A stretch of 46,723 nt of DNA from a virus. Positions 1,670 through 42,004 of the stretch are shown here, piece after piece (the stretch's first letter is position 1; the number at the start of each line of letters is the position of its first letter). The notes beneath the pieces are model-generated. The model did not search any database, was not told where the DNA came from, and was given only the letters and a program-made list of their open reading frames with translations. Where the stretch lies: positions 1 to 46,723 of IMG/VR virus record IMGVR_UViG_3300051212_001028. One strand, written 5' to 3'. Made by a program: the position numbers and the translations under genes.

Positions 1670-3947
1670 ACTCTCCCTCCTCTACTGAACTTAACTCACT
1701 TAGCAAATCTTGAAGATTGGGTTTCTCTTCTACTACCTCATCAGTCTTAATATCATAAGTGTTTTGATAGTAAGAAGTTTTCCACCCGTACTTGTATGTA
1801 GTCAAAAAGTCATTTGCCATTACTGAAGTAGGAACTTCATTGTTGTCATAATTTTCTGGATTATAACTCCAGTTACCAGAAATTGCTTGATCAAAGAATT
1901 TCTGCATCACCGCAACAATGTTAATATAACCATTGTTGTTAGGCATATCCCAAAGAAGCGTATAGTTGTTCTTGAGAGTATGATACTGGGGAACAATCTG
2001 TTTGAGTGGTCCCTTTTTACTTTTCTTAACGGACAAGTAATCCCTAGGTGGTTCGATTCCATTAGTTGCATTTGACACAACGGAACTACTCTCCGATGGC
2101 ATCTGTGCGGACAGAGTTGAGTGCCTAAGTCCATGTTCCAAGATAGATGCTCTAAGAGTTTCCCAATCATGTTCCAATTTAACAGAAGTAATTTCGTCTA
2201 CATCTTTTTTGTAAGTGTCAATTGGAAGAATTCCATCGGCATACTTAGTACGTCCAAAGTATTCACAGTGACCCTTTTCTTTAGCAAGTTGATTAGATGC
2301 TTTCAGTAGATAATACTGGAATGCCTCAGTAAGACCATGAACCGCATCCCATGCTTCTTGATCCCCATAATTAAATCCAAGTTTTGCCAAATAGTGTGCA
2401 AGACCAATAAACCCTATACCAAGTGAACGACGTGCCTTAGTGGCGATTTCTGCCGCTGCTACGGGGTATTTCTGATAGTCAATCAATTCATCCAAACCAC
2501 GAACAGAAAGATCACAAAGTTCTTCAAGTTCTTCATCAGATTTTACTTTACCAACATTAATAGCAGAAAGAATACAGAGAGCAATCTCACCACTTGTATC
2601 ATCAATATGTTGAATAGGATAAGTTGGAAGGGTAATTTCTTGGCAGAGATTGCTCATCTCAACTTTATCTTTGAAGGAAGAATGAGAATTACAATGATCA
2701 ATATTCATGATGTAGATACGACCCGTCTCAGCCCTCTCCTTAAGGAGACTGAGAATGAGTTCTTGTGCCTTAATAGTCTTTTTCGGAACGGACGTATCCT
2801 TTTCATATGAAACATAGAGATCGTCAAAACTAGCGAGTCCGAAAGAATCATAAAGTCCAGGTACGTCATGGGGACTAAAGAGAGTAATCTCTTCATCTTT
2901 AATAAACCTTTCATAAAACAACTTTGAAATTTGAATAGAGTAGTCAAGTTTACGAACTCGATTGTCTTCAGTTCCTTTGTTGTTTTTGAGAACTAGAATA
3001 TCTTCTATTTCTTGGTGCCAGATTGGGAAGTGGACTGTCGCGGATCCACCTCGTATGCCATTCTGCGTGCAACATCTGACAGTTGCTTCAAACTTCTTGA
3101 GAAATGGTACAACACCCGTGTGTTGAACTTCTCCACCTCTGATTTTGCTGTTGATGCCACGGATTCTACCAGCGTTGATGCCGATTCCCGCCCTCTGTGC
3201 AACGTATCTGCCAATAGCCATATCAGAACTAAAGATACTATCGAGGGTGTCATCAACATCAACAAGGACACAGCTAGCAAATTGTCTAAGCGGAGTTCGC
3301 ACTCCCGCCATGATTGGTGTTGGGATGTTGATTTTGTGCTTTGAGATTGCGTCATAATACCTCTTGACATATGACATTCTTGTTTCTTTTGAATACTCTG
3401 CAAAAATAGTCAGAGCAATCATCATGTACATAAACTGTGGGGTTTCATATACACCCCCACTGCTTCTATCTTGCACCAGATACTTATCAACGACTTGACG
3501 TAAACCTGCATAAGTGAACAACATGTCACGCTCATGATCAATATATGAGTCTGCTCTTTCAATTTCTTCCTTAGAATATTTACTAAAAATTTCACTATCG
3601 TAAACTTCATTGTTTACGCAGTTATAAATGTGTTGTTCTAGAGTAGGAAGTTCCTTCATCTTTCCATAAAGTTGCTTCCTAACTGAAAAGAGTAGTAAAC
3701 GAGATGCAACATATTGATAATTTGGATGTTCCAAATCAATCAAATCGGAAGCAGAACGAATCAGAATTTCCTGAATTTCTTCGGTAGAAATTCCATCATA
3801 GAATTGAATTCCAGATTTCATTTCAACTTGACTTGCAGAGACTCCAGCAAGACCCTTACATGCTTCATCAACCATTAAATGCATCTTGTCTAGATCAAGA
3901 GACTCAATTCTTCCATCACGTTTTTTAACTTTGGTGCCGTTACTCAT
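1650..3947 (-). CDS. nrdA: Ribonucleotide reductase class I alpha subunit NrdA
   Basis: Catalytic large subunit (765 aa from this start) that binds substrate and effector nucleotides and works with NrdB. An N-terminal ATP-cone-like region (VKKRDGRIESLDLDKMHLMV) is followed by the barrel domain; CQEITLPTYPIQ and NATNGIEPPRDYLSVKK match the family's active-site and substrate regions. The C-terminal CESCAV carries the CxxC pair re-reduced by thioredoxin or glutaredoxin. ATG at 3947 is preferred over an in-frame TTG at 3959 because GGAAGA precedes it and it overlaps the gp61 stop as ATGA. It belongs to the gp61-nrdA-nrdB operon behind the promoter at 4937-4964. Confidence 0.96.
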   Translation of the reverse strand: MSNGTKVKKRDGRIESLDLDKMHLMVDEACKGLAGVSASQVEMKSGIQFYDGISTEEIQEILIRSASDLIDLEHPNYQYVASRLLLFSVRKQLYGKMKELPTLEQHIYNCVNNEVYDSEIFSKYSKEEIERADSYIDHERDMLFTYAGLRQVVDKYLVQDRSSGGVYETPQFMYMMIALTIFAEYSKETRMSYVKRYYDAISKHKINIPTPIMAGVRTPLRQFASCVLVDVDDTLDSIFSSDMAIGRYVAQRAGIGINAGRIRGINSKIRGGEVQHTGVVPFLKKFEATVRCCTQNGIRGGSATVHFPIWHQEIEDILVLKNNKGTEDNRVRKLDYSIQISKLFYERFIKDEEITLFSPHDVPGLYDSFGLASFDDLYVSYEKDTSVPKKTIKAQELILSLLKERAETGRIYIMNIDHCNSHSSFKDKVEMSNLCQEITLPTYPIQHIDDTSGEIALCILSAINVGKVKSDEELEELCDLSVRGLDELIDYQKYPVAAAEIATKARRSLGIGFIGLAHYLAKLGFNYGDQEAWDAVHGLTEAFQYYLLKASNQLAKEKGHCEYFGRTKYADGILPIDTYKKDVDEITSVKLEHDWETLRASILEHGLRHSTLSAQMPSESSSVVSNATNGIEPPRDYLSVKKSKKGPLKQIVPQYHTLKNNYTLLWDMPNNNGYINIVAVMQKFFDQAISGNWSYNPENYDNNEVPTSVMANDFLTTYKYGWKTSYYQNTYDIKTDEVVEEKPNLQDLLSELSSVEEGECESCAV

Positions 3948-7220: not shown

Positions 7221-8855
7221 TCAATTTGCATCTAAAGGAAGTTTTCCGGATTTTTGCATTTGCAATCTTTGTCTCTCAAGATTCTGTTTTTTCATTTGCA
7301 TCATTTTAAGATTAGCAAGTTTCTGCTTATCCATCATTTCCTTCCTTTTATCTAAAACAGGTTCACTAGAAGGAACTTCGGTTGGAAGCATTTGCTCTAC
7401 CATTTTCTTTGCCATTTTAGTGGCAGTAGCATACATCACTTCTTTACCTCGACCTGGATATCTTTTCTCAAAGTCTGCTTCCTTATCTTTCATAGACTTT
7501 ACAATTTCCTCACGCTTTTTCATTTCCATATTAGTCAAAGTCTTTTCATCAATCTGAAAACTTTCACTTCTTACAGAAGCAAGCAAGTCATCTAGTTTTG
7601 ACTTTCTCTTTTTCTTAGGAGCAGCAGGTGCTTTTGCTTTTGGTGCTGCTGCTTTTTTAGTTGCTGCCTTTGGTTTTGGTTTTGCTGGTGTAGTTGAACT
7701 TCCCGCCCAAGGATCTGCGGGTTTTTCTGCTTTTGGTTTTGGTTTTGGTTTTGAAGGAACGGTTGCACTACCTTTCCAAGGATCTGCAGGTTTTTCTGCT
7801 TTCTTTTGAGTTGGAGGGGTATAAGAACCACTGCTCACTTTTTCTTTGGTTCCTGCCCCAGCACCACGATATGTTGATGCAGTTCTTGCTTTAGTGTGTG
7901 CTGTGCTTGGTTTTTTATCACCACCTTCCATCTTACGAGCAACACCTAATGCACCTTTAGCAACCTTTCTTGCTCCACTTGCAACTGCCGCTGAAGCAGA
8001 TGCCTTAGCACCACGAACCTTAGATGACAATTTTTTTCTTGCGAGTCTACCAACTGCTCTTAAAAGATTTCCTCTTTTTTTCTCTCCAGTTGGAGTATCA
8101 TGTCCAAAAGTAACTGTTGCTTCAGTTAGTGCATACTCAAGTGCATCTTCAATATCATCTTCTTCATATCCTTCATCCAGAAGTTCACTATAAACACTCT
8201 CAACAATAAAATCTACTTCATCAATCTCAACCATTTCAAGAAGAGTTCCACCAAGATTTTCTACTGCTTCCCCAAGTTTGAGTCCACCTCCCATAGCAGA
8301 AGTTTTAACTTTATTTTTAATATTTTTTTTCTCTTTTATTTGCTTATTTTCATCATCAACAACACCATCAACAACCTCTGCGAGATCTTGTCTCCAGTTT
8401 GAGAAACCTTCTTTTACATTTTTATTTGCAATTGCCTTACCGATTGCCTTTCTTCTCTTATGAAGATACTTATCAGACTTATCAGTATCACCATCATTAT
8501 CAATGTCAGCATCCTCTTTACCTACCGGATCAAGTGCTTCAGTTTTGACTTTATCTAGTTCTTTAAGTTTTTTCTGCATTGCTTGATATCCTTTATCATA
8601 CCCACCACCTTTCTTGGGAACTCCACCATACTTACCACCAGGTCTCCCAAATGGATCCTTTTCTTCACTTTTCATTGCTTCACGCTTTGCCTTAGTTTTA
8701 GCAAGAATTCTTGCCTTAGCAGCATCACGCTCAGACTGAGGAATGTCGATGTTAGTTAAAGCACCAACTTTTTCTGCAGGTTTTCCGGGAACTGCAGACT
8801 CAGAAACTTGCTCCAAATAAACTTTGGAAATGTTATTCAGGGGATTAATAGACAT
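7221..8855 (-). CDS. Lys/Ala/Pro-rich protein with Ca-binding-like loop, 544 aa
   Basis: Unknown function, probably virion-associated. Residues 117-128 (DIDNDGDTDKSD) match the 12-residue EF-hand or dockerin calcium loop, with Asp at 1, 3, 5 and 12 and Gly at 6. Residues about 200-245 form an acidic helical segment (ELLDEGYEEDDIEDALEYAL). A disordered Lys/Ala/Pro region (about 300-420) contains two copies of a 23-residue unit built on EKPADPW. The C-terminal 100 residues are charged helices rich in Met, Lys and Gln. It is the first gene of a late unit with promoter at 8886-8893. No enzyme motif is visible. Confidence 0.7.
   Translation of the reverse strand: MSINPLNNISKVYLEQVSESAVPGKPAEKVGALTNIDIPQSERDAAKARILAKTKAKREAMKSEEKDPFGRPGGKYGGVPKKGGGYDKGYQAMQKKLKELDKVKTEALDPVGKEDADIDNDGDTDKSDKYLHKRRKAIGKAIANKNVKEGFSNWRQDLAEVVDGVVDDENKQIKEKKNIKNKVKTSAMGGGLKLGEAVENLGGTLLEMVEIDEVDFIVESVYSELLDEGYEEDDIEDALEYALTEATVTFGHDTPTGEKKRGNLLRAVGRLARKKLSSKVRGAKASASAAVASGARKVAKGALGVARKMEGGDKKPSTAHTKARTASTYRGAGAGTKEKVSSGSYTPPTQKKAEKPADPWKGSATVPSKPKPKPKAEKPADPWAGSSTTPAKPKPKAATKKAAAPKAKAPAAPKKKRKSKLDDLLASVRSESFQIDEKTLTNMEMKKREEIVKSMKDKEADFEKRYPGRGKEVMYATATKMAKKMVEQMLPTEVPSSEPVLDKRKEMMDKQKLANLKMMQMKKQNLERQRLQMQKSGKLPLDAN
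7707..7800. repeat. Two-copy 69-base direct repeat inside the 544-aa gene
   Basis: 25-base copies beginning at 7707 and 7776 differ at one base and lie 69 bases (23 codons) apart. They encode two EKPADPW units in the disordered linker. Confidence 0.8.
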
Positions 8856-8865
8856 TGTAAACTTA

Positions 8866-10152
8866 CTATCTCTTTACCTTATACTTATTTATGAATTCCC
8901 TAATCTGCTTATAACCCTTATAAGGTTTTGCTCCGTATTGAAGATTTGTTTTATCTCCAGGATTAAATCCAGGTGTCATATCCACAGCATATTTAAAATA
9001 CCCACCAGTCCCAACTAGTGTATTTGGTTTTCCTTGAACTCTATTTTTCTTTTCCATTTTCACTTCAGAATATTCCATTAAATCTTTAATCCAAGATTTA
9101 AACATATAACCTTCTTTAGAAACACAAATTAAATGATTAGTTCCTCTACGAATAACCTCACCAACCAATCCAGTATTTAAGTTTTCTACAATATCACCAA
9201 TTCTAAAAATTCTACCAGTTACATAATTTTCACGAAGAGATTCTTGATCATATTTTGGTGCAATTTGCCACAATTCAGCAACTTTTTTACTCTTCTTTGC
9301 ACCCATCCCCTGACGAACAGCATCAAAAAGTGCTCTCGTATCTCCATCATCTAACACCTTTGGAGTTCCTCTACGGAAAGATTTAAAGTCATCTTCAATA
9401 ACTGCCTTTCTCATCTTAGATGCCGACATTCCCTCCACACCCTCAGCATCAGCATCACGAACACCTGCCGAAATAACACGAATTAAATCAAACTCATAAA
9501 GTTCTCCATTATACTTTTGAGCAAGATTTTCAAACTCCGATTGTCTATCAGATCCAACAACAATATTTACATTTGAATATCCCGATTCATTTGCAGCGAT
9601 CAATACATTAAATATTGACTTCATTTCTTTATCATTAATAATGTTTTCCTCAAAATCTGGGAACATCTTTTTCATGAACGAAATCTTCATGTCAGGATCA
9701 AGAGGATTCTTCTTGGGATCTTGTGTTCTAGAAGGATAAATATTAAGATCTCCTCCAGTTGCTGCTTTTCTTGCTGCCTTGAGAAGTTTTTCGTGTCCAA
9801 CTGTTGGTGGATTAAATCTTCCAAATACTACAGTTAAAGTATTACCACCAGTATCAACATCACCAGTTGGAGTTTCTGATTTTTCTGGTGCTTTTGGTGC
9901 CGGTTCTGCAGTTGGTTTTGCTTCTGGTTTTTCTGCTGCTGATTTACCTACTGCGCCTTTAGGTTGATCCTTTCCACCATCTACTCTACCTTTATCATAA
10001 AATACTAGTTTTCCCTTTTCTGTTTTCGCAACAAATTCTCCACGTGTGTCTAACCAACCACCATGTCCATCACTCTTGAGGTTTAGTTTTTTCGCTTGCA
10101 GAGATGCTTGCGATTGAGTTGCCTCTGTTAAAAATTGGGAAAAACTCTTCAT
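8866..10152 (-). CDS. Nucleotidyltransferase with capsid-targeting-like N-terminus, 428 aa
   Basis: The core (about 105-290) is a cytidylyltransferase/NMN-adenylyltransferase-like Rossmann domain. VVFGRFNPPTVGHEKLL holds the nucleotide-binding (T/H)xGH motif, VVGSDRQSEF is the middle strand, and SASKMRKAV stands where the family's SSTxxR motif lies. Such enzymes move a nucleotide from NTP to a phosphorylated acceptor; the substrate is not evident. The first residues, MKSFSQFLTE then A, resemble the T4 internal-protein targeting peptide with an L-x-E cleavage site. A Pro/Ala linker (about 60-100) joins it to the core. A small beta-rich domain at about 335-385 begins FRIGDIVENLNTGLVGEV. The unit has its own late box at 10173-10180. 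Confidence 0.8.
   Translation of the reverse strand: MKSFSQFLTEATQSQASLQAKKLNLKSDGHGGWLDTRGEFVAKTEKGKLVFYDKGRVDGGKDQPKGAVGKSAAEKPEAKPTAEPAPKAPEKSETPTGDVDTGGNTLTVVFGRFNPPTVGHEKLLKAARKAATGGDLNIYPSRTQDPKKNPLDPDMKISFMKKMFPDFEENIINDKEMKSIFNVLIAANESGYSNVNIVVGSDRQSEFENLAQKYNGELYEFDLIRVISAGVRDADAEGVEGMSASKMRKAVIEDDFKSFRRGTPKVLDDGDTRALFDAVRQGMGAKKSKKVAELWQIAPKYDQESLRENYVTGRIFRIGDIVENLNTGLVGEVIRRGTNHLICVSKEGYMFKSWIKDLMEYSEVKMEKKNRVQGKPNTLVGTGGYFKYAVDMTPGFNPGDKTNLQYGAKPYKGYKQIREFINKYKVKR
8886..8893 (-). promoter_or_regulatory. Late promoter CATAAATA
   Basis: Late box on the minus strand within the 3' end of the nucleotidyltransferase gene, 31 bases upstream of the 8855 start. Confidence 0.5.
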
Positions 10153-10172
10153 ATTGTTTAATCTTATACTTT

Positions 10173-10180
10173 TATTTATT
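10173..10180 (-). promoter_or_regulatory. Late promoter AATAAATA
   Basis: Minus-strand late box 21 bases upstream of the nucleotidyltransferase ATG (10152), overlapping the end of the 464-aa gene. Confidence 0.6.
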
Positions 10181-11573
10181 AATACAGTTTTCCGAAGGGT
10201 CCAAACTTATTTCCTTTTTTAATTGCTAAGAATACAATATCTGTCCAAACTTCAGATTGTTTTTTATCTGGAGATATTTTATAAATTGCATCCAAAAAAG
10301 CAAGTTGCATCAATTTTGAATTTGCAACATGTGGTCTTTCAAAAAATGTTGCCTTTATATTTTTATCAAATTCATTACTACTAGTAACTCCAGTTTCAAC
10401 TTTTGTTTTTATTCTATTAAACATAGACTTGAATTCATCATCTCTCTTCAAATATTCATCCAAAGATTTTGGATAATTTCCATTTACTTTATCAAAAGTT
10501 TGTCCACAGTCCTTTAAAAGTTGAACCACCATTTCCACTTGAGCTTTGCCACCTCTAGCTGCACCGGCACCAATTTGCGTGGCTTCCCATTTTAAGTTAC
10601 TAAACTTAGATGAATCATTTGCTTTAATTTGAAACTTAAATCCCTTACCATCTTTTTTTGTTAATTTAACAATTGTATCCTGTGTCATATTTTCAGTAAA
10701 CTTAATGACAACATTAACATTTGGAAAATTATATTCATCAATTTCATCCAAAGTTAATTGTTCTATATTATATTCTTCAAATTTTGCTTGCTGCCCCGAT
10801 ACTTTTTTTAATGATATACCAACCAGTTTTCTTTCTTTATATAAAGATCTCATTACAGTATTCAATTCTTCTATAGTTTGACTACCTTTACTTCCATCTA
10901 CTGTTTTATCTATTACATCAGTAATTTTCTTAACCGAAGATTTAATTAACCACATATCAGCAGGATCCCAATTATCCTTTTTAGATATTCCAAATTTCTG
11001 CACTATAACAGTACTTATATAATCCATAAAAGAACCGCTACCACTGTGATCAAAAACATTCCACTGACTATTAGAAAATTCATCAAACATTTTTTTATGC
11101 TGCTTCCAAAATACTTCCATCCATTCAAATTCAACAGTCGGATATACTTTTCTAATACCATTCATCGTTTCCACGTCATTCATCATCGCTTCAACAGATT
11201 TCCAAGTAATGTTATCCTTTAAGACTCTTTCAAAAACATAAGTAGAAGCCTTTTCTTGCATTAAAGTTGTTTTTGCATCTGCAGCTTTAGTTGCAGTTGG
11301 TTTATATGAAATAGTAACAGATTTTAGAGATGATTTTGGTTCAAATGAAAGAATTGTAGATGGAAAAGAAGATCCACTAACTACTTTTGAAGTATAAGGA
11401 ATTTTTTTCTTGTCCAACAACTCATGAATTTTTGAAGAGGTTTCAATTCTATTGACAGATCCTACTTTTATTTTTTTAGTTGTTTTTGTTGCGGTTTCAT
11501 TAATCGAAACCGATCTGTCCTTTTTTATCTCTTCCAGAACATCCACAAATTCTGAAACCTTAGCAAAAGCCAT
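10179..11573 (-). CDS. Phage protein of unknown function, 464 aa
   Basis: The frame could be extended to 11651, but that would run through the tRNA-Ala gene. ATG at 11573 (MAFAKVSEFVDVLEEIKKD) is therefore preferred, although its ribosome binding site is poor. The protein is soluble, mixed charge, with no membrane segment. WDPADMWLIKSS followed about 60 residues later by KLVGISLKKVSGQQ recalls motifs of other large cyanophage proteins of unknown role; the lysine-bearing strand could belong to a nuclease-like fold, but I see no full PD-(D/E)xK set. It lies downstream of the tRNA and may be co-transcribed from the tRNA promoter. Confidence 0.65.
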   Translation of the reverse strand: MAFAKVSEFVDVLEEIKKDRSVSINETATKTTKKIKVGSVNRIETSSKIHELLDKKKIPYTSKVVSGSSFPSTILSFEPKSSLKSVTISYKPTATKAADAKTTLMQEKASTYVFERVLKDNITWKSVEAMMNDVETMNGIRKVYPTVEFEWMEVFWKQHKKMFDEFSNSQWNVFDHSGSGSFMDYISTVIVQKFGISKKDNWDPADMWLIKSSVKKITDVIDKTVDGSKGSQTIEELNTVMRSLYKERKLVGISLKKVSGQQAKFEEYNIEQLTLDEIDEYNFPNVNVVIKFTENMTQDTIVKLTKKDGKGFKFQIKANDSSKFSNLKWEATQIGAGAARGGKAQVEMVVQLLKDCGQTFDKVNGNYPKSLDEYLKRDDEFKSMFNRIKTKVETGVTSSNEFDKNIKATFFERPHVANSKLMQLAFLDAIYKISPDKKQSEVWTDIVFLAIKKGNKFGPFGKLY

Positions 11574-11605
11574 TTTTTGTGCACTATCTTTCAAGTATTT
11601 AGAAG

Positions 11606-11679
11606 TGGAGGATATCGGACTCGAACCGATGACATCTTGCTTGCAAAGCAAGTGCTACTACCAACTGAGCTAATCCCCC
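11606..11679 (-). tRNA. tRNA-Ala (anticodon TGC)
   Basis: A full cloverleaf on the minus strand: 7-bp acceptor stem GGGGGAT/ATCCTCC (one G-U), anticodon stem CTTGC/GCAAG with loop TTTGCAA (anticodon TGC), T arm ATCGG-TTCGAGT-CCGAT, discriminator A. The 3' CCA is not encoded. The D arm (GCTCAGTTGGTAGTAGC) has one base more than the usual bacterial tRNA-Ala, leaving a shorter stem and larger loop. Its 5' end is 11 bases from the -10 box of a consensus promoter. It is the only tRNA I find in the window. Confidence 0.93.
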
Positions 11680-11689
11680 AATAAAAGAT

Positions 11690-11718
11690 ATTATAAAACC
11701 CACTCAACAAAATGTCAA
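11690..11718 (-). promoter_or_regulatory. Consensus sigma70 promoter for tRNA-Ala
   Basis: On the minus strand TTGACA (11713-11718), exactly 17 bases, then TATAAT (11690-11695): a perfect match to the bacterial consensus. The spacer and -35 box lie inside the terminator-like hairpin of the preceding gene. Confidence 0.88.
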
Positions 11719-11725
11719 GTGGGTT
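11695..11725 (-). terminator. Terminator-like hairpin overlapping the tRNA promoter
   Basis: Minus strand AACCCACT, 13-base loop, AGTGGGTT, followed by TTAT. It closes the 409-aa gene; its loop begins with part of the -35 box of the tRNA promoter. Confidence 0.6.
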
Positions 11726-11748
11726 AGAGCAACCTTCCGATTTATTTA

Positions 11749-12978
11749 TCAACCCTTCTTGGCACGAATTCTTGCAAGAACTGCACCAGCAACTTTTTCA
11801 CCACGCTCCTTAGATCCATAACGCTTACCTGCTTCTTTAGCAATCTTTGCAAATTGCTTACCAGGTTTGCCGATATCCTTACCTTCCCTTGCTGCCTTTG
11901 CTGAGTATGATGCTTCCTTTAAATCATCCTCTTCTTCATCATCTTCGTCCTCTTCAGACTTTTTGGACTTTTTACCCTTTTTCATTTCTTCATCCTCTTC
12001 GTCTTCTTCGTCCTCATGCATCGCTTCAACGATAGCATTAATATCTTCACTATCTAACTGATTTGCCATCATCCACTCTGCTTCTTCCAGAGTTTCTGCA
12101 AATCCTTCTACTTGGAGGAATTCAAGAACCACATCAAAGATATCAAATTCTTCCTTAGCAAACTCACCCATTGCTTTTTGCTTACGGAGTTTCTTAGCAC
12201 TCTTGGTTACACCACCAGCACCCTGAGAAGGATAATCATGATCTTGACGAGTACCTACACCGTGCTTAGAACCTGCTCTTGCTCTTTCTCTATCGTCAGA
12301 GGTCATACCCTTTCTTGGTGAATCATCCGGAGTTCTATTAGCAGGGTTGGTTCTGCTTAGCATCTTCTTGAGGAATGGTTTCCTCTTTGCAGTCATTTTG
12401 GTTCCTCTTGCTGCACTATATGCCTTTGGGGTAGTACCATATGAACCTTCTGCTTCATCAATCTGTTCTACTTCTTCAAGGCAAATATCATAAAATTCAT
12501 CATAAGAATATGATGAAAGATCATATCCCTCATCAAGAAGAGTATTTACAATCCAATCAAACTCTTCATTCTTAAGTGCTGCTGCTCTTTTTGCTGCTTT
12601 ATTACCTCTACCGTGCTTCATGTCAGCACCATACTTACTATATCCTGCCTTTAAATAACGGTCGTGTGCTTCCTTTGATTTGTCTGCAACTTTTTTAGTA
12701 TATACAGAACCACCGTACTTATCTTCATCTCTTTCTGCTCTTGCACGACTACGATTGAGAATTTGTCTTTTTGCCGAAGTATCAGATTTTTCTGGACCAA
12801 CATTATATCTTTGACGCAAAACTTCACCCCTACTCATTGGTTTTGGTGCTTCCGCATCATTTTCCCCGCGACCAAGCAATCTCTTTACAGCGGAACGAAG
12901 TCCTTCTTCAATTTCCTCTTGTGGAGCATAAACCTCAGCATATGCTTCAACTAATCCCAAGAATTCTTTGGTATCCAT
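11749..12978 (-). CDS. Acidic/basic modular phage protein with capsid-targeting-like N-terminus, 409 aa
   Basis: Unknown function, probably a virion or internal head protein. The start MDTKEFLGLVE then A resembles a targeting peptide with an L-x-E cleavage site. It contains two helical acidic modules (about 137-175 and 275-315, each starting EEFD) and a very acidic run rich in Asp, Glu and Lys (about 320-360). A C-terminal basic helix (GSKERGEKVAGAVLARIRAK) ends the protein. The stretch KKLRKQKAMGE between the modules is shared, identically over 29 bases, with the basic protein at 25909-26925. Expressed from the TATAAATA box at 13000-13007. Confidence 0.75.
   Translation of the reverse strand: MDTKEFLGLVEAYAEVYAPQEEIEEGLRSAVKRLLGRGENDAEAPKPMSRGEVLRQRYNVGPEKSDTSAKRQILNRSRARAERDEDKYGGSVYTKKVADKSKEAHDRYLKAGYSKYGADMKHGRGNKAAKRAAALKNEEFDWIVNTLLDEGYDLSSYSYDEFYDICLEEVEQIDEAEGSYGTTPKAYSAARGTKMTAKRKPFLKKMLSRTNPANRTPDDSPRKGMTSDDRERARAGSKHGVGTRQDHDYPSQGAGGVTKSAKKLRKQKAMGEFAKEEFDIFDVVLEFLQVEGFAETLEEAEWMMANQLDSEDINAIVEAMHEDEEDEEDEEMKKGKKSKKSEEDEDDEEEDDLKEASYSAKAAREGKDIGKPGKQFAKIAKEAGKRYGSKERGEKVAGAVLARIRAKKG
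12167..12195. repeat. 29-base exact repeat, copy 1 (pair at 26612-26640)
   Basis: Identical to 26612-26640 over all 29 bases. On the minus strand both encode KKLRKQKAMG in otherwise dissimilar proteins about 14.4 kb apart. Confidence 0.9.
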
Positions 12979-16671: not shown

Positions 16672-19166
16672 CACATAAAAAAAGATTCCAAAGTTGTAGT
16701 TTTTTCTATTTTCCACCCAATAATATCAAGAATTACCTTAAGTGGTTCTAGAAATGATTTTTCAAATTGTAATTCATAATCTATGTATCTGTCAAGATTT
16801 AGTTCCTTAGGGAACTCTTGTATAAATGAGATTACATTTTCATGGATAGTATTTGGTTTCTTAAGGTAAACAAATTTAATCTTTTCTCCATTTTGTATAA
16901 GAGAATATTTGTTATTAAGTTTATTTTGTTTTATGTAATGATTGAAAAGAAGTGCTCCCCTAACGTGAATCGGAGTTCCTTTAATATAAATGTCGGAATG
17001 AGATTTATATTTCTGAACATCAGAAGCAGAACGTGGAAATGAAATTTCTTCAGGAGAAAGACTTGTGAATTTATTGCGAGATTCCTCAATAAATTTAATC
17101 ATATCATCTTCACTACCACTCATCATAAGATTGAAAGATTCTTTTAGCATCTTGCGACAAGGAGCTGGGGTAGAAGATTTAATTGCTTCAATTCCTTTGA
17201 TTTTGAGTTTAGGAGTTTCATAACGAACTCCTTCACTATCCCATACACTTAAAATATATCTCTTCTTCGCAGTCCAAATACCACGCTCAGCAATACACTC
17301 ACGTTTCATAAACATTTTTTGATCGTAAGCATTCACGTATTCCGCCAATTCTTGGTAAGAATTTTCAATATACTTTTCAAGTTCCATAGAACAGATCTTA
17401 TCAAGGAACGAGACAACGCTTTCAGTAGTTTTTTCTCTTCCTTTGTATACAGTTTCAACCAAAGGACCCATATTAATATAAAGAGAATCAGTATCCGAAG
17501 CAATAACATAATCTTCACCGTCAGTTTTAAGAATTTTGTTGAGATATGAATTCATTTTATTCATAATCCACTGAATTGATACTTGCCCTGAAAAAGTAAT
17601 TGCTTCAGCATTCGACAATTTATAGTAACGAAAATACTGATTACCAATAGCACCATAGGCAGAGTTGAGTTGAATCTTTCGTGCCATCTGAATGTTATTG
17701 CAGCGAGCAATCTCTTTAATCAATTGCTTGTTCTTCGTTTTTTCATATTCTTGTTCAGCAGCAAGCATCTTCTTTTTAAAGATTACACGTTCATTGTAAA
17801 TCTTTTCCATTAATTCTGGAAGAAAACCACGAACATCTTTACGATACATTGCACCATTTGCACAAATTGCATAATCTTTATACATCTCAAAAGTAAGTTC
17901 TTGATTTAGAATCTTATCTACATTGACTGTTGGATGTTTTTCTTCAACCAATGTTTCGGGAGAAATATTGTATTGCATAATCAGGTGAGGATATAGTGAG
18001 TTCAAGTCAAAACTCACAACCCAATCGTAAAGTCCAGGAATTGGTTCTTTTACATAGGCACCAGCATATTTTTCATCCTTACGTTCTTTATTTCGTGGAG
18101 GAATTACAATGTTTCTTTTCTTGAGGTATGTGTAGATAATATTGTCCCACATGCGAACTTGATAAAACACATCGGCATAATTTACCTTTGCGTCATATGC
18201 CATAGTAAGAGCAAGTTCAATCAGTTTCATCTTGTCTTCTAGTTTATCGACAAGTTCTACGTCAATGATATTATACTCAATAAATTTCTGCCATCCTTTA
18301 GTGTAGAAATCTTTAAATGTATCAAATTCAGAGTGATCCAACTTTTTCTGCCCAAGTTCAACTTCGGCAATATAATCAAGACGATAGGACTCTTGAACTT
18401 TATAGGTAAACTTTTTATAAAGATCTAGATAATCAAGTTGAGTTAGTCCACCTACATCAAATGTCGTATGCTTTCGTCCATTAATAAAGATTTCTCCTTC
18501 AGTTACAAGTCCCCAGTTAGAAAAACGCTTCATTAGTTTCTCACCAAGAACACGATTCAGGCGCTTACAGATATAAGGAACGTCATACAACTGAATGTTC
18601 CATCCAGTAATCACATCAGGAACATCAACCATCCAATAGTTAATGAAATGATTGAGAAGTTCATACTCAGAAGGACAATAATAGTATGTTACATCCTTAC
18701 GAGTGTTATTGAATGGTTTAACTCCCCATGTCGTAATCTTCTTAGTAGTATAATCCTGAATACTAATGGATAAGATTTCTTCTGAGGCAGATTCTACATC
18801 TGGGAATCCACCTTCAGAAGCAACCTCAATATCTAGAGTTACAAGTTTGATTTTGCTAATGTCAAATTTGATTTCATCTTCTGGATATTTCTCCGAAATA
18901 TACTGGTAGATGTAACGATCATTTCCGTAAATTTCGAATCCATCTACATTTTCATACTTACTATAAAACTCACGACAGTCTTTAACTGTACCGGGATTTA
19001 CCGGTTCAACTGCTTCACCACTTAATGTTCTATACTTAGAGTCTTTTTTAGACTTTACATAAAGAGTTGGAAAAAACTCATCTCTAGTTTCAAATCTTTT
19101 TCCATTTTGCACACCACGAACTAAAAATTGATTTCCAATCAATTGAACATTAGTATAAAAATTCAT
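16671..19166 (-). CDS. gp43: DNA polymerase gp43 (family B)
   Basis: Replicative polymerase with 3'-5' proofreading. The exonuclease domain shows LVTLDIEVASEGG (Exo I, about 108-120) and VITGWNIQLYDVPY (Exo II). Polymerase motifs are DLNSLYPHLIMQYN (motif A), KIQLNSAYGAIGNQYFRYY (motif B) and ASDTDSLYINMG (motif C, with the catalytic Asp-Thr-Asp). The 831-residue length compares with 898 in T4; no intein, split or intron is seen. The C-terminus ends with a hydrophobic tail (TTLESFFM) likely to bind clamp gp45. Follows two small Sm-like genes in the operon behind the promoter at 19761-19788. Confidence 0.97.
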   Translation of the reverse strand: MNFYTNVQLIGNQFLVRGVQNGKRFETRDEFFPTLYVKSKKDSKYRTLSGEAVEPVNPGTVKDCREFYSKYENVDGFEIYGNDRYIYQYISEKYPEDEIKFDISKIKLVTLDIEVASEGGFPDVESASEEILSISIQDYTTKKITTWGVKPFNNTRKDVTYYYCPSEYELLNHFINYWMVDVPDVITGWNIQLYDVPYICKRLNRVLGEKLMKRFSNWGLVTEGEIFINGRKHTTFDVGGLTQLDYLDLYKKFTYKVQESYRLDYIAEVELGQKKLDHSEFDTFKDFYTKGWQKFIEYNIIDVELVDKLEDKMKLIELALTMAYDAKVNYADVFYQVRMWDNIIYTYLKKRNIVIPPRNKERKDEKYAGAYVKEPIPGLYDWVVSFDLNSLYPHLIMQYNISPETLVEEKHPTVNVDKILNQELTFEMYKDYAICANGAMYRKDVRGFLPELMEKIYNERVIFKKKMLAAEQEYEKTKNKQLIKEIARCNNIQMARKIQLNSAYGAIGNQYFRYYKLSNAEAITFSGQVSIQWIMNKMNSYLNKILKTDGEDYVIASDTDSLYINMGPLVETVYKGREKTTESVVSFLDKICSMELEKYIENSYQELAEYVNAYDQKMFMKRECIAERGIWTAKKRYILSVWDSEGVRYETPKLKIKGIEAIKSSTPAPCRKMLKESFNLMMSGSEDDMIKFIEESRNKFTSLSPEEISFPRSASDVQKYKSHSDIYIKGTPIHVRGALLFNHYIKQNKLNNKYSLIQNGEKIKFVYLKKPNTIHENVISFIQEFPKELNLDRYIDYELQFEKSFLEPLKVILDIIGWKIEKTTTLESFFM

Positions 19167-19444
19167 TCTTTAATCAAATCCTCGTATTTTTCAATAAGTG
19201 TTGGACTAGGATCGGCAAGAGTAAGAATCTTATCCGAACTCATCATAAATGTATCTTGTTTTGTAACTCCCATTAGAAAAGGTTCCAATGTTCTCGAAAG
19301 TCCTTCAATTTGTGGTTCTTTTATCAGAAATGGTTTAACTAATTTGCAGTCAGGTTCTCCAATATCAGCACCTATCTCTTCAATCTGACTGATGAGAATC
19401 ATATTGTTCATTAATGCTAGAATCTTGATAGTTTTCATTTCCAT
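19163..19444 (-). CDS. Sm/SH3-like small protein, paralogue 2, 93 aa
   Basis: Predicted five-strand beta barrel. DTFMMSSDKILTLADPSPTL followed by IEKYE matches the IxxDxVxTxxEPxxxLxxxYE ending of the next gene upstream (19380-19739) and of the protein at 32904-33296, so the three appear paralogous. The start ATG at 19444 lies 65 bases inside the upstream gene, with alternatives at 19438 and 19411; the true start is uncertain. Ends at the gp43 start. I cannot name a function; an Sm-like fold could bind RNA or proteins. Confidence 0.7.
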   Translation of the reverse strand: MEMKTIKILALMNNMILISQIEEIGADIGEPDCKLVKPFLIKEPQIEGLSRTLEPFLMGVTKQDTFMMSSDKILTLADPSPTLIEKYEDLIKE

Positions 19445-19739
19445 TTTTTGCTATTCCAGTTTCATAAAGTTCTTTCAATCTATCTATGGGTTCAACAACA
19501 GTTATTACCCAATCACCAGAAATAAGAACTTTTTGATCTTTTGAAAGTGGTATCCAAGATGTTAGTTGTATTTTACATGGTATTTTCTTGGAAGTTGTAT
19601 CTTCATCATAAGAAATAACTTTAACTACACATGGATTTTCAAATAAATATCCAACCATTTTTCCTTCATCCACAAAGACTTCTTGCATATCAGCAATAAC
19701 ATCTTCGCCAGACTTAAGTAATGCTAATTTTATAGTCAT
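19380..19739 (-). CDS. Sm/SH3-like small protein, paralogue 1, 119 aa
   Basis: Begins MTIKLALLKSGEDVIADMQE, a short strand with the KSGE turn typical of Sm-like barrels. NPCVVKVISYDE, IQLTSWIPLSKDQ and WVITVVEPIDRLKELYE then form the remaining strands and a terminal helix. The C-terminal 25 residues are polar and disordered. First gene of the polymerase operon; the promoter -10 box ends about 22 bases upstream. Function unknown; conserved-looking in relation to two other proteins in this window. Confidence 0.75.
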   Translation of the reverse strand: MTIKLALLKSGEDVIADMQEVFVDEGKMVGYLFENPCVVKVISYDEDTTSKKIPCKIQLTSWIPLSKDQKVLISGDWVITVVEPIDRLKELYETGIAKNGNENYQDSSINEQYDSHQSD

Positions 19740-19760
19740 TTTTTTATTTCATCCCACCAT

Positions 19761-19788
19761 ATTCTATCACAAAAAAAGGAGGAGTCAA
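19761..19788 (-). promoter_or_regulatory. Sigma70-like promoter for the DNA polymerase operon
   Basis: Minus strand TTGACT (19783-19788), 16 bases, TAGAAT (19761-19766). The -35 box lies in the stem of the terminator that ends hsp20, and the spacer contains that terminator's T-run. Confidence 0.78.
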
Positions 19789-19812
19789 CCTGGATTTTGC
19801 CAGGTACTCCTC
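19771..19812 (-). terminator. Rho-independent terminator after hsp20 (two stacked stems)
   Basis: Minus strand outer stem GAGGAGT/ACTCCTC and inner stem ACCTGG/CCAGGT around a 6-base loop, with a 2-base bulge, then seven T. It overlaps the promoter of the next operon. Confidence 0.9.
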
Positions 19813-22016: not shown

Positions 22017-22957
22017 TTGAATTCGCACTCCGCCATAATTTCAGTAAGAGCAGCAAGAAGATTTATTTCTTGATCAGCCACGAAACAACATTGGTATTGA
22101 TACTTAGCAATAATAAGAACGGCAGCAGGAATAGATTGGGGTAGAAGGTAATTATAAGTGGCGTCATAAACCCGGCGAAGTAAATGAGAAGCGTCGTTAT
22201 CCATGTTCCCGACCACCCACTTTCGGACTTCAGTAAAGTTTTTATCTTTGAGAGATTTAATAAGTTCATTTACAGATACATCGGAAAAAGTTGCAAGAAT
22301 ACCAGAGTCAATTTTACCACCCGTAGAATACCTCTGAATTTCGTTTAGAACTCTTCGGAAATCAGGGAAATGTTTTGATACCAGTTCCGCAACGACTTTT
22401 TGATCATACTCAATTTTTTCCGCATCCAAGATTTGTTGAAGTCGTTTAAAGAAACTTCCCGCAAGTTGTGCTTTTTGCTTTCCCTTAATTGTGAAGTCGA
22501 TGACGGCACATCGTGAGTGGAGGGGTTCGATGATCTTGTTCTTGTAGTTACAGGTGAAGATGAATCGGCAGTTGTTATAAAATGCCTCAATATTCGCCCG
22601 TAGTAAGAGTTGTACGTCGTTGCCTGTGTTATCTGCCTCATCGATGATGATGACTTTGTGTTTAGAAGATCCCGTAAGTGAGACGGTCGAAGCGAAGTTC
22701 TTTGCTTGGTTCCGTACAGTATCCAAGAAACGTCCTTCGTCGGATCCGTTGATGACATAATAATCTGCTCCTAATTCGTTACATAGTGCCTTTGCAATTG
22801 TGGTTTTACCAATACCAGGAGGTCCGGCGAGAAGAAGGTTTGGAATCTCCCCCTTCTCTACAAACTCCTTAAATGTTTTTTTAGTTTCATCAGGAAGAAT
22901 ACAGTCATCAATAACTTGCGGTCTGTATTTTTCGGTCAGAAGAAATTCACTTGCCAT
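22013..22957 (-). CDS. gp44: Clamp loader ATPase subunit gp44
   Basis: AAA+ ATPase of the clamp loader. Walker A LLAGPPGIGKTTIAKAL is at about residues 42-58, DEAD-type Walker B VIIIDEADN at about 103-111, and the SRC arginine-finger motif HSRCAVIDF near 147. A three-domain RFC fold is expected over 314 residues, close to T4 gp44 (319). Starts three bases after the stop of the upstream gene. Confidence 0.95.
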   Translation of the reverse strand: MASEFLLTEKYRPQVIDDCILPDETKKTFKEFVEKGEIPNLLLAGPPGIGKTTIAKALCNELGADYYVINGSDEGRFLDTVRNQAKNFASTVSLTGSSKHKVIIIDEADNTGNDVQLLLRANIEAFYNNCRFIFTCNYKNKIIEPLHSRCAVIDFTIKGKQKAQLAGSFFKRLQQILDAEKIEYDQKVVAELVSKHFPDFRRVLNEIQRYSTGGKIDSGILATFSDVSVNELIKSLKDKNFTEVRKWVVGNMDNDASHLLRRVYDATYNYLLPQSIPAAVLIIAKYQYQCCFVADQEINLLAALTEIMAECEFK

Positions 22958-25908: not shown

Positions 25909-26925
25909 TCATTTAAATTGCATTTTCTTTTTACCAACTATAGTAGCACCTTCACCAGGTTTCAATGGTTTATTTGCATCTCTAGTAGAAAGTTTACCTT
26001 GATCATACTTTTTACCCAACTTTGGATCGGAATCAGATCTTCTAGAAGTACCTAACCAAGATGCCTTTGCCCCGGTTCCTGGTTTTTGCTTGATAAGAAC
26101 GCTATCTTGATCATCTTTTTTTGAATCTGGTTTTTGATTTCTTTTGTGCTTTATACCTCCTTCTTGTCCAAGTTTAGTTACTGTTTTTTTAAACTTTCTT
26201 TTGCCCTGTTTGCCAGATCCAACCACAAAAGATTTTTCTGTTTGCTCTCCATGATCTTTTTCATGATAAGCACCTTTCACTTTTGTTGGTCCAGGCAATC
26301 CAGCTCCACGAATACGGTTTACAAGTGTATTCGATCTTTGTTGTTTTTCTTTTTTAGTTTTGTCTCCCCTGTCAGAAGACATAATAGCAACTCCACCCTT
26401 TTTTGTTTTTGAAACAACTCTACTTAAAGATGATTCATCAACATACTCTTCTTTTGCTACTGGTTTTCTAGCAATATCAGAAGACGTATCCTTTGCGTGC
26501 TTCATTAAACGAATAAGTTCAGCAACCTTTTTCTTTCTCTTTTCGTCTGCTTTTTCTTCTGGAGATTTTTTGGTAATGAAAAGTTCATCAATACACTCTT
26601 CGCCAAGTTCTCCCATTGCTTTTTGCTTACGGAGTTTCTTTGGATTTTTAGTCTTATCTGCTGAGTACATATCATCATTATCATTATCAGGATCTACAGC
26701 ACTACGATGTCTTGTTTGTCTTTCGTGATCAGGCATATTTGCACGACCTCTCTTCGCTTCATCAGGAGAATAGGTTCTACCACTGTTATACCATTCTTTA
26801 CCTACATGACCCCTCTTCTTGGCATCGGCAGAGGCTTCTCTACGCTTGTTCTTTCTACGATTTGCTTTAAAATCTTTCATGGTCATGCCTTCAGCAATTT
26901 CCATGAACTCCTGGAATGTTTTCAT
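25909..26925 (-). CDS. Basic protein with T4-type targeting N-terminus and DUF3293-like segment, 338 aa
   Basis: Starts MKTFQEFMEIAE then G; this is very like the T4 internal-protein capsid-targeting peptide (MKTYQEFI...), with an I-x-E cleavage site at residues 10-12. The protein is strongly basic. The central segment GGVAIMSSDRGD, NTLVNRIRGAGLPG and EKSFVV has the pattern of DUF3293, a phage and bacterial domain of unknown function. KKLRKQKAMGE (about 97-107) is shared with the 409-aa protein. Its gene lies between a VWA protein and the CobS-like gene, outside the late island and without a visible late box. I infer a packaged, DNA-binding protein. Confidence 0.75.
   Translation of the reverse strand: MKTFQEFMEIAEGMTMKDFKANRRKNKRREASADAKKRGHVGKEWYNSGRTYSPDEAKRGRANMPDHERQTRHRSAVDPDNDNDDMYSADKTKNPKKLRKQKAMGELGEECIDELFITKKSPEEKADEKRKKKVAELIRLMKHAKDTSSDIARKPVAKEEYVDESSLSRVVSKTKKGGVAIMSSDRGDKTKKEKQQRSNTLVNRIRGAGLPGPTKVKGAYHEKDHGEQTEKSFVVGSGKQGKRKFKKTVTKLGQEGGIKHKRNQKPDSKKDDQDSVLIKQKPGTGAKASWLGTSRRSDSDPKLGKKYDQGKLSTRDANKPLKPGEGATIVGKKKMQFK
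26612..26640. repeat. 29-base exact repeat, copy 2 (pair at 12167-12195)
   Basis: Same 29 bases as 12167-12195, same reading frame and strand, encoding KKLRKQKAMG. Confidence 0.9.
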
Positions 26926-35851: not shown

Positions 35852-37219
35852 TCACATTAGGTTGCTAACCTTTACTCTTCTGTAGTAACGGTTTGCATTT
35901 GCAGTGAGTCCTGTATCAGAAACTGCACCGCTTGCTGCGCCACTATTTGCGAATGGGTTAGTAACAACTCCATAACGAGTCTTGAAGCCGATCTTAGGCT
36001 GGAAGTTGTTCTCACCAACGGCACGAACCATTTGGAGAGGAACATATGGGCAATAGAAGAGTCCAGCATCATAAGGTGAAGAACCCTTATAACCGACAAC
36101 ATAGTATTGATCAGCAGAAACGTTTGCTGAATAAGGATCGATATATACACGATACTTACCTTGGAGAACACCAGCAAAGGTGTTACCGGTGTCATCAACG
36201 TTGAGGTTAGCATTAAGAGCAGGGGTGTAATCAAGAACACCAGCCATAGTTAGTGCTGAAGCAACGTCAGCAGAACAAAGGATGATGTTGCCCTTTCCTC
36301 TACGAGTTCTTTGTGCGATTGCGTTAGCATCACGCTCGATTTGGAATAGAAGACCCTTGAACTTCTCAACAGACCAACGACCGTTTGAGTCAACGTCGAG
36401 ATCGAATACACCAGCGTTAGCAACGTTTGCTTGAGCACCAGCTTCAGCAACCTTATAAATGGTTCTGATAATCTCTCTGTTAATCTCAGTTAGAATCTCA
36501 GTGCTGAGGATGTTAGCAAGCTCAGCTTCTGCATTCAGACCGTGAATTGCCTTGAGATCCTGAGCGAGTTCTAATGAATACTCGGCCTTTAGAGCACGTG
36601 ATCTTGCGGTAACGGTAACTTTCTCGATTGAGAAAGCCATTTCGTTGAAAGCAACTCCGTTATCATCGCCAAGTGCTTCAGCAGCTCCAGTTTGCATACC
36701 TGCACCAGTGGTATAAGTTCCACTAGCGTTAAGTACAGCAGGATTACTTCCGGTTGGGTTTGTTGTACCAATACCAGTTGCTGTTAGAGATCCTCTTGCA
36801 CCGGAGAATTCGGTCTTTGCTTCATCATATAGTGCCTCATCTCCACTCTGTGAAGAGTAGCGAGAACGCATTGCGAAAATAAGTCCAGTAGGACCATTCA
36901 TTGGTTGAACGCCAGCAAGGTCATAAGCGACCAAGTTAGGCATTGAACGGCGGATGAGTGAAATAAGAACTGGATCAAAACCTGCAACGGTTTGTCCACC
37001 AGCTCCGGTGTATCCACCATTTCCGACTGCATTAGCTGGAGCTTCCATTAGATTGGAAATTCCACCTGCACTAAATGCAGCTTCTTCTCTTAAGAATTTT
37101 TCTTGGTTTTCTAGCAGGACGGCGGTTACTGCTCTTCTGTGCGAATCTTTGATTGGATCAAGACCCTCATAGTTGAGGAGAGGTGCCCACTTGTCCTGCA
37201 ATCTTTCTGATTGAAACAT
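35852..37219 (-). CDS. gp23: Major capsid protein gp23
   Basis: Forms the hexameric shell of the head. The 455-residue precursor should be cut by protease gp21 after Glu59 (SNLME then AP), similar to cleavage after Glu65 in T4 gp23. Hallmark segments are PVLISLIRRSMPNLVAYDLA (about 83-102), GVQPMNGPTGLIFAMRSRY, EMAFSIEKVTVTARSRALKA and RRGKGNIILCSADVASAL. It has the typical HK97-fold length for cyanophage gp23. Between gp22 and a strong terminator, giving an independent late transcript end. Codon choice is more G/C-rich than in its neighbours, as expected for very high expression. Confidence 0.97.
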   Translation of the reverse strand: MFQSERLQDKWAPLLNYEGLDPIKDSHRRAVTAVLLENQEKFLREEAAFSAGGISNLMEAPANAVGNGGYTGAGGQTVAGFDPVLISLIRRSMPNLVAYDLAGVQPMNGPTGLIFAMRSRYSSQSGDEALYDEAKTEFSGARGSLTATGIGTTNPTGSNPAVLNASGTYTTGAGMQTGAAEALGDDNGVAFNEMAFSIEKVTVTARSRALKAEYSLELAQDLKAIHGLNAEAELANILSTEILTEINREIIRTIYKVAEAGAQANVANAGVFDLDVDSNGRWSVEKFKGLLFQIERDANAIAQRTRRGKGNIILCSADVASALTMAGVLDYTPALNANLNVDDTGNTFAGVLQGKYRVYIDPYSANVSADQYYVVGYKGSSPYDAGLFYCPYVPLQMVRAVGENNFQPKIGFKTRYGVVTNPFANSGAASGAVSDTGLTANANRYYRRVKVSNLM

Positions 37220-38487: not shown

Positions 38488-39138
38488 TTACAGTGAATTT
38501 AAAAATTCATTAAATAGACTTAACTTATAATCTTCAAGAATTTTTTGATCAACTAAACTATTTATTTTATTTTTAGTGTCTTGTGCTACTCTTTCTCTTA
38601 AAACACTGCCATCCCAAACCCATTCTTTTCCTTCCATGATTCCTTGGACAAATGCATCTGGTGCTGATGGATCTGCAACTATATCTGCAGCAGTAGCTAG
38701 CATAAAATCTTCACCAACTTCTTGATACCCATCTCTATTAGGACGAAGTGAACCAATACCTCTAGAAGAAACTCCTAAACAAACTCCTTCTTTCAAAAGA
38801 GACTCTGCAATTTTTCCCATTGGAGTGGATAGTATTTGTGCCTTCCCTATAAAATTATTTCCATCCTGCTTAAGTTCAACAATTTTATGGGAAACCCTAT
38901 CCAAATTAACAGTAGGTCCATCAGGATGTCCTAGTTCACCGAGGGCACGTCCTTTATTAACATACTGTTCTGTGTAACGCTTTACCTCCCTTTCCATAAT
39001 GGACATGGGATACATTCTTCCATTACGGTTTACACATTCTGCCTGTAAAAAAGGTCCTTGAATGTAAAGAGTTTTTTTACCCTTTACACTTTCTGTTATC
39101 ACTTGTATTGATTCAATTTCTTCTGTTATTAGTTTCAT
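38488..39138 (-). CDS. gp21: Prohead protease gp21
   Basis: Serine protease (S77 family) that cleaves head proteins after (L/I)-x-E during maturation. The catalytic His lies in ALGELGHPDGPTVNLDRVSH (about residues 62-81) and the Ser in GVCLGVSSRGIGSL (about 117-130). Length 216 compares with 212 in T4. Late promoter at 39161-39168. Its specificity can be tested against the L/I-x-E sites noted in gp23 and in three accessory proteins. Confidence 0.94.
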   Translation of the reverse strand: MKLITEEIESIQVITESVKGKKTLYIQGPFLQAECVNRNGRMYPMSIMEREVKRYTEQYVNKGRALGELGHPDGPTVNLDRVSHKIVELKQDGNNFIGKAQILSTPMGKIAESLLKEGVCLGVSSRGIGSLRPNRDGYQEVGEDFMLATAADIVADPSAPDAFVQGIMEGKEWVWDGSVLRERVAQDTKNKINSLVDQKILEDYKLSLFNEFLNSL

Positions 39139-41364: not shown

Positions 41365-42004
41365 AATTAATTTCAGTACTAGTTTTATCTCCATTGTTAG
41401 ATGATCCAGTTCCAGCTGTCCAGTATTGAACTTGGAATTCTACAGTATATTCTTCAATAGTATCAGAGCTATCATATGAAAGATCAATTTGTCCAACGCT
41501 TGTTGGAAAAATATCGAAAAATTTATATGTTCTTAGTGGAATTATGGCATCATTATTTCCTTGGTTAGATGATGCATTTGACTCAGCATTTGCACCTCTT
41601 CCAAGTTGATGAACATAAGCACTTGCCATATATTCGGATGGATCTACAATTCCAGTTGCATTCTCCAGTCTACTAATTTCATTCATCCATCTTTCAAAAG
41701 CAGTTCTAAGTTTAAAGTCTTCATCATTTATGATAGTGACTGTCCATGGATCAAAAGTTCTATCCCCAGCAACTTTTAATACTCTTCCTCTAAATGGAAT
41801 ATCTATTGGAGTAATATTTGATGCTGGAAGAGCTGCTGTTTTGCATAAAAACTTAAATGTGTCTGATTCTTGATCAGTACCAGTTCCCCAATAAGATTGT
41901 AATGCAGTTGGGAATGATGGAATTTCAACCTCAAATAAATTTGGTCTTGCACCACCACCAGCAAGTCTTGATTTGAATCCTGAAATAGTTCTGAGTGTAG
42001 ACAT
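41363..42004 (-). CDS. gp19: Tail tube protein gp19
   Basis: Forms the inner tube of the contractile tail. 213 residues, compared with 163 in T4. Features include RTISGFKSRLAGGGARPNLF, VEIPSFPTALQ, TAALPASNITPIDIPFRG and WTVTIINDEDFKLRTAFERW, and the end IDLSYDSSDTIEEYTVEFQV. Its ribosome binding site AAGGAGGT is the strongest in the module, matching the need for many copies. No own late box is visible in the 36-base gap after gp18, so it is probably expressed from the gp18 transcript. Confidence 0.94.
   Translation of the reverse strand: MSTLRTISGFKSRLAGGGARPNLFEVEIPSFPTALQSYWGTGTDQESDTFKFLCKTAALPASNITPIDIPFRGRVLKVAGDRTFDPWTVTIINDEDFKLRTAFERWMNEISRLENATGIVDPSEYMASAYVHQLGRGANAESNASSNQGNNDAIIPLRTYKFFDIFPTSVGQIDLSYDSSDTIEEYTVEFQVQYWTAGTGSSNNGDKTSTEIN

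Follow-up and report, generated by a model that had tools for sequence, protein, structure and literature searches.

A cyanophage nucleotidyltransferase with a putative T4-type capsid-targeting peptide, probably packaged in the head and delivered with the DNA

Cyanomyoviruses, which are very abundant marine phages, share as a core gene a nucleotidyltransferase that has been seen repeatedly in virions, an observation left unexplained and for which contamination is possible. Is this enzyme truly cargo of the head, what signal would place it there, and what might it do in the host? Here we present an analysis of one such gene, located in a 46,723-nucleotide fragment of a T4-like cyanomyovirus (hereafter the window; IMG/VR record IMGVR_UViG_3300051212_001028, which contains the window only). 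The coordinates and N-terminus given in the initial annotation (MKSFSQFLTE then A) hold, with the gene on the minus strand; that strand also holds gp17, gp18, gp19, gp20, gp21, gp22, gp23, UvsW, gp43, gp41 and others, gene names outside the family searches having been assigned by eye from the translations. The gene, its parts and its surroundings are as follows (a slash marks a cut).

8866–10152, minus: virion-type HIGH nucleotidyltransferase gene, 428 residues, ATG at 10152 (PHROG_395, 1.5e-101)
10123–10152, minus: capsid-targeting-like peptide MKSFSQFLTE, residues 1–10, assigned from its invariance and its match to T4 ipII/ipIII and gp23
10122/10123, minus: predicted gp21 cut E10/A11, in agreement with the [LI]xE/[AGS] consensus
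9988–10104, minus: DGHGGW module of about 40 residues (17–55), common to unrelated virion proteins; sequence SLQAKKLNLKSDGHGGWLDTRGEFVAKTEKGKLVFYDKG
9847–9978, minus: Pro/Ala/Lys-rich linker, residues 59–102, predicted to be disordered (pLDDT below 50 for residues 55–100)
9298–9840, minus: HIGH-type nucleotidyltransferase domain, residues 105–285, with GRFNPPTVGH and SASKMR motifs and PDB fold matches
9073–9216, minus: modelled C-terminal beta-rich domain, residues 313–360, encoded by its own gene in the S-RSM4 clade
10173–10179, minus: T4-type late box ATAAATA, 21 nt upstream of the nucleotidyltransferase ATG
7221–8855, minus: downstream neighbour gene with its own late box, homologue of S-SCSM1 virion protein gp92
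10179–11573, minus: neighbour gene, homologue of S-SCSM1 virion protein gp90 (PHROG_1462)
11605–11679, minus: tRNA-Ala(TGC), overlapping the called start of ORF 10179–11651
11749–12978, minus: third candidate cargo, N-terminal site MDTKEFLGLVE/A, homologue of S-SCSM1 virion protein gp89

The PHROG 395 gene has matches in 534 phage records, and the nearest isolates by identity are Bellamy (66%), S-SCSM1 (65%, ORF91) and S-SM2 (65%). Genes 89–93, 95 and 97 around ORF91 are marked as virion proteins in the S-SCSM1 record, and the same cluster is present in the window. The start of the neighbour gene was moved from 11651, inside the tRNA, to the likelier 11573 (MAFAKVSEF); S-SCSM1 has a tRNA-Ala in the same position. 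Late boxes were assessed by position, since across the whole window the motif occurs at chance level (23 seen against 20.5 expected, no enrichment) and its placement relative to gene starts is therefore the informative quantity: a box lies 5–45 nt upstream of 10 of 39 genes, with 1.5 expected and a maximum of 6 in 500 shuffles. Gene 11749–12978 has one 22 nt upstream. For the nucleotidyltransferase, which had been described as driven by a late box, the box is in place and boxes are enriched upstream of starts; its action, late transcription from ATAAATA, is what we infer.

The AlphaFold2 model contains a confident Rossmann-like domain at residues 105–285 (pLDDT about 90), preceded by the disordered linker and followed by the beta-rich domain. 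Foldseek against the PDB returned NadD, PPAT and NadM, including the bifunctional NadM 2qjo, at E of about 1e-5, and the motifs GRFNPP[TH]xGH and SASKMR are essentially invariant among 36 homologues. The protein thereby displays the features of the HIGH (HUP) superfamily ([HT]xGH and SxSxxR motifs on a Rossmann-like fold), and the enzyme class first assigned to it, nucleotidyltransferase, is borne out as a HIGH nucleotidyltransferase fold. Its PF01467 score of 15.4 lies below the cut-off of 21; the S-SM1, S-PM2 and S-CREM2 homologues pass. The substrate was not fixed by Pfam, NCBIfam or PDB sequence searches, in which the NMN/NaMN adenylyltransferase models TIGR01526 (14.3 bits) and TIGR00482 (14.5 bits) fell far under their cut-offs, and the PDB fold matches did not separate NMNAT from PPAT. 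These adenylyltransferases are nonetheless the nearest sequence models, though below cut-off, and taken with the fold matches they make NMN/NaMN adenylyl transfer the best single guess, a modelled activity to which we give slightly less than an even chance. Several cyanophage groups annotate the enzyme as NMNAT. In the S-RSM4 clade (S-RSM4 2489–3303) the enzyme is split into a 187-residue nucleotidyltransferase without the peptide and an 84-residue partner that starts MKDFKKLREEA and is annotated, apparently wrongly, as a ribonucleotide reductase alpha subunit.

The N-terminus is where the enzyme resembles T4 cargo. T4 ipII and ipIII (NC_000866) begin MKTYQEFIAE/A, and T4 gp23 in the same record is cut at GSFLTE/AEIGG; the internal-protein peptide given in the initial annotation is right for ipII and ipIII and wrong for ipI (NC_000866), which has a longer leader, MKTFKEFTSTTTPVSTITE/A, ending ITE/A. 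We built a profile of peptide positions 2–10 from the N-termini of nucleotidyltransferases on metagenomic contigs together with T4 ipII/ipIII, excluding S-CREM2. A comparison of this kind had been named at the outset as a check. The window nucleotidyltransferase scores 26.3 bits, among shuffled N-termini a fraction of 2.3e-5 attain 12 bits, and none of the other window genes exceeds 9 bits.

The peptide is also the best-kept part of the region that precedes the catalytic domain. Across 36 diverse homologues (34–81% identical to the window protein), F4, F7, E10 and A11 are the sole invariant columns in residues 1–109. The pattern F-x-x-F-[LIF]-x-E/A is kept, in about 30 spellings, in 160 of 160 IMG/VR homologues with a readable N-terminus, including those whose remaining N-terminal region cannot be aligned or is missing; because these loci were collected by similarity to peptide-bearing queries, the count speaks for conservation within those lineages and not for universality. 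The S-SZBM1-type lineage, in which the entire stretch between peptide and catalytic domain differs and the peptide is shorter by one residue (MRFRQFIIE/A), still keeps F-x-x-F-[IL]-x-E/A. S-PRM1 and S-CAM9, whose alignments begin at residue 12–13, were considered as counterexamples and rejected: they start MSFFKKVRTILE/G, divergent but with an IxE/G site retained. Relatives in the S-RSM4 clade and in jumbo phages (Muenster, Callisto) have no peptide and begin at the catalytic domain, and the jumbo-phage cases indicate that the fold does not by itself entail the peptide. By analogy with T4, cleavage after E10 is very probable, and removing residues 1–10 from the full-length product leaves 418 residues with a basic pI of 9.3. 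The uncut and predicted mature N-termini compare as follows.

Window nucleotidyltransferase: uncut SFSQFLTEATQSQASLQAK; predicted mature ATQSQASLQAK
S-SCSM1 ORF91: uncut EAAESGASVQAK; predicted mature AAESGASVQAK
S-SZBM1_140: uncut QFIIEAVAAAAK; predicted mature AVAAAAK

The presumed machinery for such a cut, and further candidate substrates, are encoded in the window.

38488–39138, minus: head maturation protease of gp21 type, presumably the enzyme that makes the cut (PHROG_207, 1.4e-80)
37040–37051, minus: gp23 maturation site NLME/A, residues 57–60, the sole [LI]xE[AGS] site in the window gp23
25909–26925, minus: second candidate cargo, with an N-terminal MKTFQEFMEIAE/G and a domain resembling S-AdoMet lyases (PF23780, 1.9e-7)

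The gp23 site described earlier as LME then A is confirmed as the only one of its kind in that protein (NLME/APAN), and gp23 has LTE/A in S-CREM2 and S-SZBM1 and LAE/A in S-SCSM1 at the equivalent position. The gp22 scaffold contains nine [LI]xE[AGS] sites, and gp21 has its own ITE/S site at residue 16. Among 48 window genes, a site within the first 30 residues occurs only in the nucleotidyltransferase, 11749–12978, 25909–26925, gp21 and one gene whose start is uncertain. The product of 25909–26925 (minus strand; N-terminus MKTFQEFMEIAEG) is a homologue of S-CREM2 ORF6, a virion-list protein, and from its sequence is possibly a packaged SAM-degrading anti-restriction enzyme.

Published proteomes place homologues in particles. 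In CsCl-purified virions, mass spectrometry (MS) detected S-SCSM1 ORF91 (65% identical; PMC9602691), the S-SM1 T4-GC190 homologue (PMC3037559), S-SZBM1_140 (PMC9146016) and S-CREM2 ORF154 (PMC10665884). All four carry the peptide. In the S-SZBM1 virions the nucleotidyltransferase had an emPAI of 0.26 against 2.83 for the portal (PMC9146016); its abundance in the virion is apparently low. In S-PM2 the homologue lacks the peptide and follows DUF6267 in a fusion; there the cytidylyltransferase is listed among the proteins that were not detected in virions (PMC3037559), a weak negative given that the S-PM2 proteome is less complete. A virion NMNAT has also been reported in S-CBWM1, a non-T4 phage. 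This evidence concerns homologues in other phages, and co-purification is not fully excluded by the published MS. With homologues in at least four cyanophage virions, and an N-terminal signal that is invariant and common to other virion proteins, the proposal that the enzyme is packaged in the head is well supported; since close relatives have been detected inside purified particles, the window enzyme too is likely to be taken into the head and to reach the host together with the phage genome.

Virion presence is thus largely known for the family from the reports on S-SCSM1, S-SM1, S-SZBM1 and S-CREM2, the covered portions of which give no targeting or processing signal for these homologues. 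A literature search on cyanophages and capsid targeting matched only a T4 history paper. What is new here is the signal that ties this family's virion presence to T4 capsid-targeted cargo, together with its sharing by unrelated cyanophage virion enzymes, neither of which we found in the literature.

This link was quantified in S-CREM2. Of its 219 annotated proteins, five score 11–21 bits against the profile and the next best scores 1.9: the nucleotidyltransferase ORF154, the APH/Pkinase-like ORF14, the SAM hydrolase ORF6 and the small proteins ORF136 and ORF13. Every one of them appears on the published virion list (52 of 219 proteins), as do the four that remain without the nucleotidyltransferase (4/4, p = 0.0027). 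Pooled over S-CREM2, S-SZBM1 and S-SCSM1, 7 of 10 profile matches are virion proteins (p = 4e-4), or 4 of 7 with the nucleotidyltransferases left out (p = 0.02), at a 10-bit threshold that was picked after the gap in the S-CREM2 scores was seen. Strong matches missing from the virion lists are the small proteins S-SCSM1 gp30, its homologue S-SZBM1 191 and S-SZBM1 192, the S-SZBM1 list having 30 entries only. The peptide is an imperfect predictor of virion proteins. A strict regular expression requiring A, G or S at P1' was abandoned in favour of the profile; it caught only ORF154 in S-CREM2 because E, F, Q or D occupies that position in the remaining cargo. A small conserved protein in the structural region, MKxFKxF[LM]SESVNISGDFNGNLY (S-SCSM1 44215–44535; S-SZBM1 22311–22628), has a very high peptide score and is on no virion list. 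The C-terminal end of the 69-residue S-SCSM1 virion protein gp93 (41626–41835), KKRTFKEFLEYIE, resembles a capsid-targeting peptide.

The DGHGGW module that follows the peptide is likewise shared. It recurs in S-CREM2 ORF12 (7704–10313, HNH-like) and twice in the protein kinase ORF14 (10579–12846), with blastp values of 6e-6 and 5e-4; both are virion proteins, and ORF12 has a capsid-targeting-like FASFMAE/A at residues 19–26, shortly before its module. The annotation of ORF12 as 'Cas9' was set aside, there being no Pfam match, and it is treated here as an HNH-like protein (phrog_3561). In the structural model the module forms a helix and a small beta sheet; that virion enzymes carry it repeatedly suggests a role in packaging or in holding DNA.

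From these observations we propose the following mechanism. The gene would be expressed late; residues 1–10 would act as a T4-type capsid-targeting sequence and bind the enzyme into the prohead scaffolding core, for which T4 provides the precedent (Mullaney and Black); and a gp21-type protease would then cut after E10, releasing the basic 418-residue enzyme within the head. Each particle would carry a few copies, which would enter the cell with the DNA and act on host nucleotides ahead of all phage gene expression. The chemistry would most likely be adenylyl transfer to a mononucleotide, as in NMN/NaMN adenylyltransferases, and would sustain NAD+ while the host is taken over or when defences deplete it. 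That the enzyme is in virions by means of its N-terminal signal is highly likely, and its injection, argued from T4, is likely; the proposal as a whole, a capsid-targeted, gp21-trimmed and injected NMN adenylyltransferase-like enzyme, we regard as probable.

Three other readings were weighed against it. The enzyme might be an intracellular auxiliary metabolic enzyme (AMG), as it is annotated, with the virion detections being carry-over and the peptide serving another purpose. The authors of the S-SCSM1 and S-CREM2 MS reports do acknowledge that proteins abundant during infection may be carried over, and the S-RSM4-clade relatives dispense with the peptide. Yet the enzyme has turned up time and again, in at least four virion proteomes obtained independently, and the peptide is better conserved than all else before the catalytic domain and also marks unrelated virion proteins; we consider this reading very unlikely. 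Alternatively, the enzyme could be packaged and processed yet work inside the head or in assembly, for example bound to DNA, with no meaningful injection. Its basic pI, the associated DGHGGW and C-terminal modules and the virion proteins encoded by neighbouring genes would suit such a role; however, the intact GRFNPP.xGH and SxSxxR signature needs ATP and substrate, presumably scarce in a packed head, and T4 IPI, packaged likewise, gets injected according to the literature. We consider this improbable, although less so than carry-over.

The remaining reading accepts packaging and injection and questions the substrate, which would be RNA, protein or another small molecule instead of NMN/NaMN. 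The NMNAT models all stay below their cut-offs, the scores for the PPAT and NadD folds are equal, and there is a weak profile match to UPF0348 (3gmi, E 0.13). A further point in its favour is DUF6267, a conserved neighbour or fusion partner that, from its invariant motifs (KWDGAP, GDLL, EGFVAI and KLVD), looks like a ligase-superfamily enzyme. Yet all the best sequence and fold matches are mononucleotide or phosphopantetheine adenylyltransferases, and the cyanophage annotations favour NMNAT; another substrate has an appreciable chance that nevertheless falls below even. DUF6267 adjoins or is fused to the nucleotidyltransferase in several lineages (S-PM2 18026–19805; L086 31477–32670; L182 29296–30270). 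As an RNA-ligase partner of the enzyme it is retained only as a lead: the motifs are suggestive, the RNA editing ligase fold match reaches only E 0.1, and the domain is absent from the window.

Under the proposed mechanism, the closest known counterparts are T4 ipII and ipIII, with which the window enzyme shares the ten-residue MK-x-[FY]-x-x-F-[IL]-x-E/A at the extreme N-terminus, a late box, a basic mature protein and a phage with a gp21-type protease and an LxE/A capsid site. Unlike these small binding proteins, it is a 428-residue multi-domain enzyme of apparently low abundance. To the cyanophage virion 'cytidylyltransferase/NMNAT' (T4-GC190, PHROG_395), already reported in virions, it is homologous. 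The parallel drawn at the outset with T4 Alt stands as far as both are enzymes carried in the head, Alt being N-terminally processed after [IL]xE as is predicted for the window enzyme, and fails for activity and N-terminus: Alt is an ADP-ribosyltransferase beginning MELITE, with a different fold and chemistry and reportedly processed at the C-terminus as well (PMC5694885), whereas family and fold searches of the window enzyme gave nucleotidyltransferase only, with no ADP-ribosyltransferase domain. Cyanomyoviruses have no alt.

With regard to NAD+, the window enzyme is unlike NARP1, which uses Adps and a Nampt-like Namat; the window is a genome fragment. A lone NMNAT needs NMN, and cleavage of NAD+ to nicotinamide and ADP-ribose gives none, which argues against a complete counter-defence pathway. 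An early NAD+ role for the window enzyme, whose predicted chemistry would feed NAD+, is made plausible by T4-like vibrio phages, whose particles were found to contain an NAD+-restoring NARP2 protein (PMC12028318).

For an enzyme whose presence in virions could be put down to contamination, a conserved targeting and cleavage signal supplies a mechanism of packaging, makes real packaging testable from existing peptide data, and allows phage enzymes that travel with the DNA to be predicted from their N-termini. More broadly, marine T4-like phages may share a general code for delivering proteins, in which many unrelated enzymes (nucleotidyltransferase, kinase, HNH-like and SAM lyase) bear a capsid-targeting peptide and often a DGHGGW adaptor as well, an idea for and against which we find the balance even. 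If true, such cargo would be loaded, gp21-trimmed and injected, serving at once to take over the host and counter its defences, the injected proteome of marine T4-like phages would become predictable from N-termini, and the T4 internal-protein idea would be extended from small inhibitors to a modular enzyme set.
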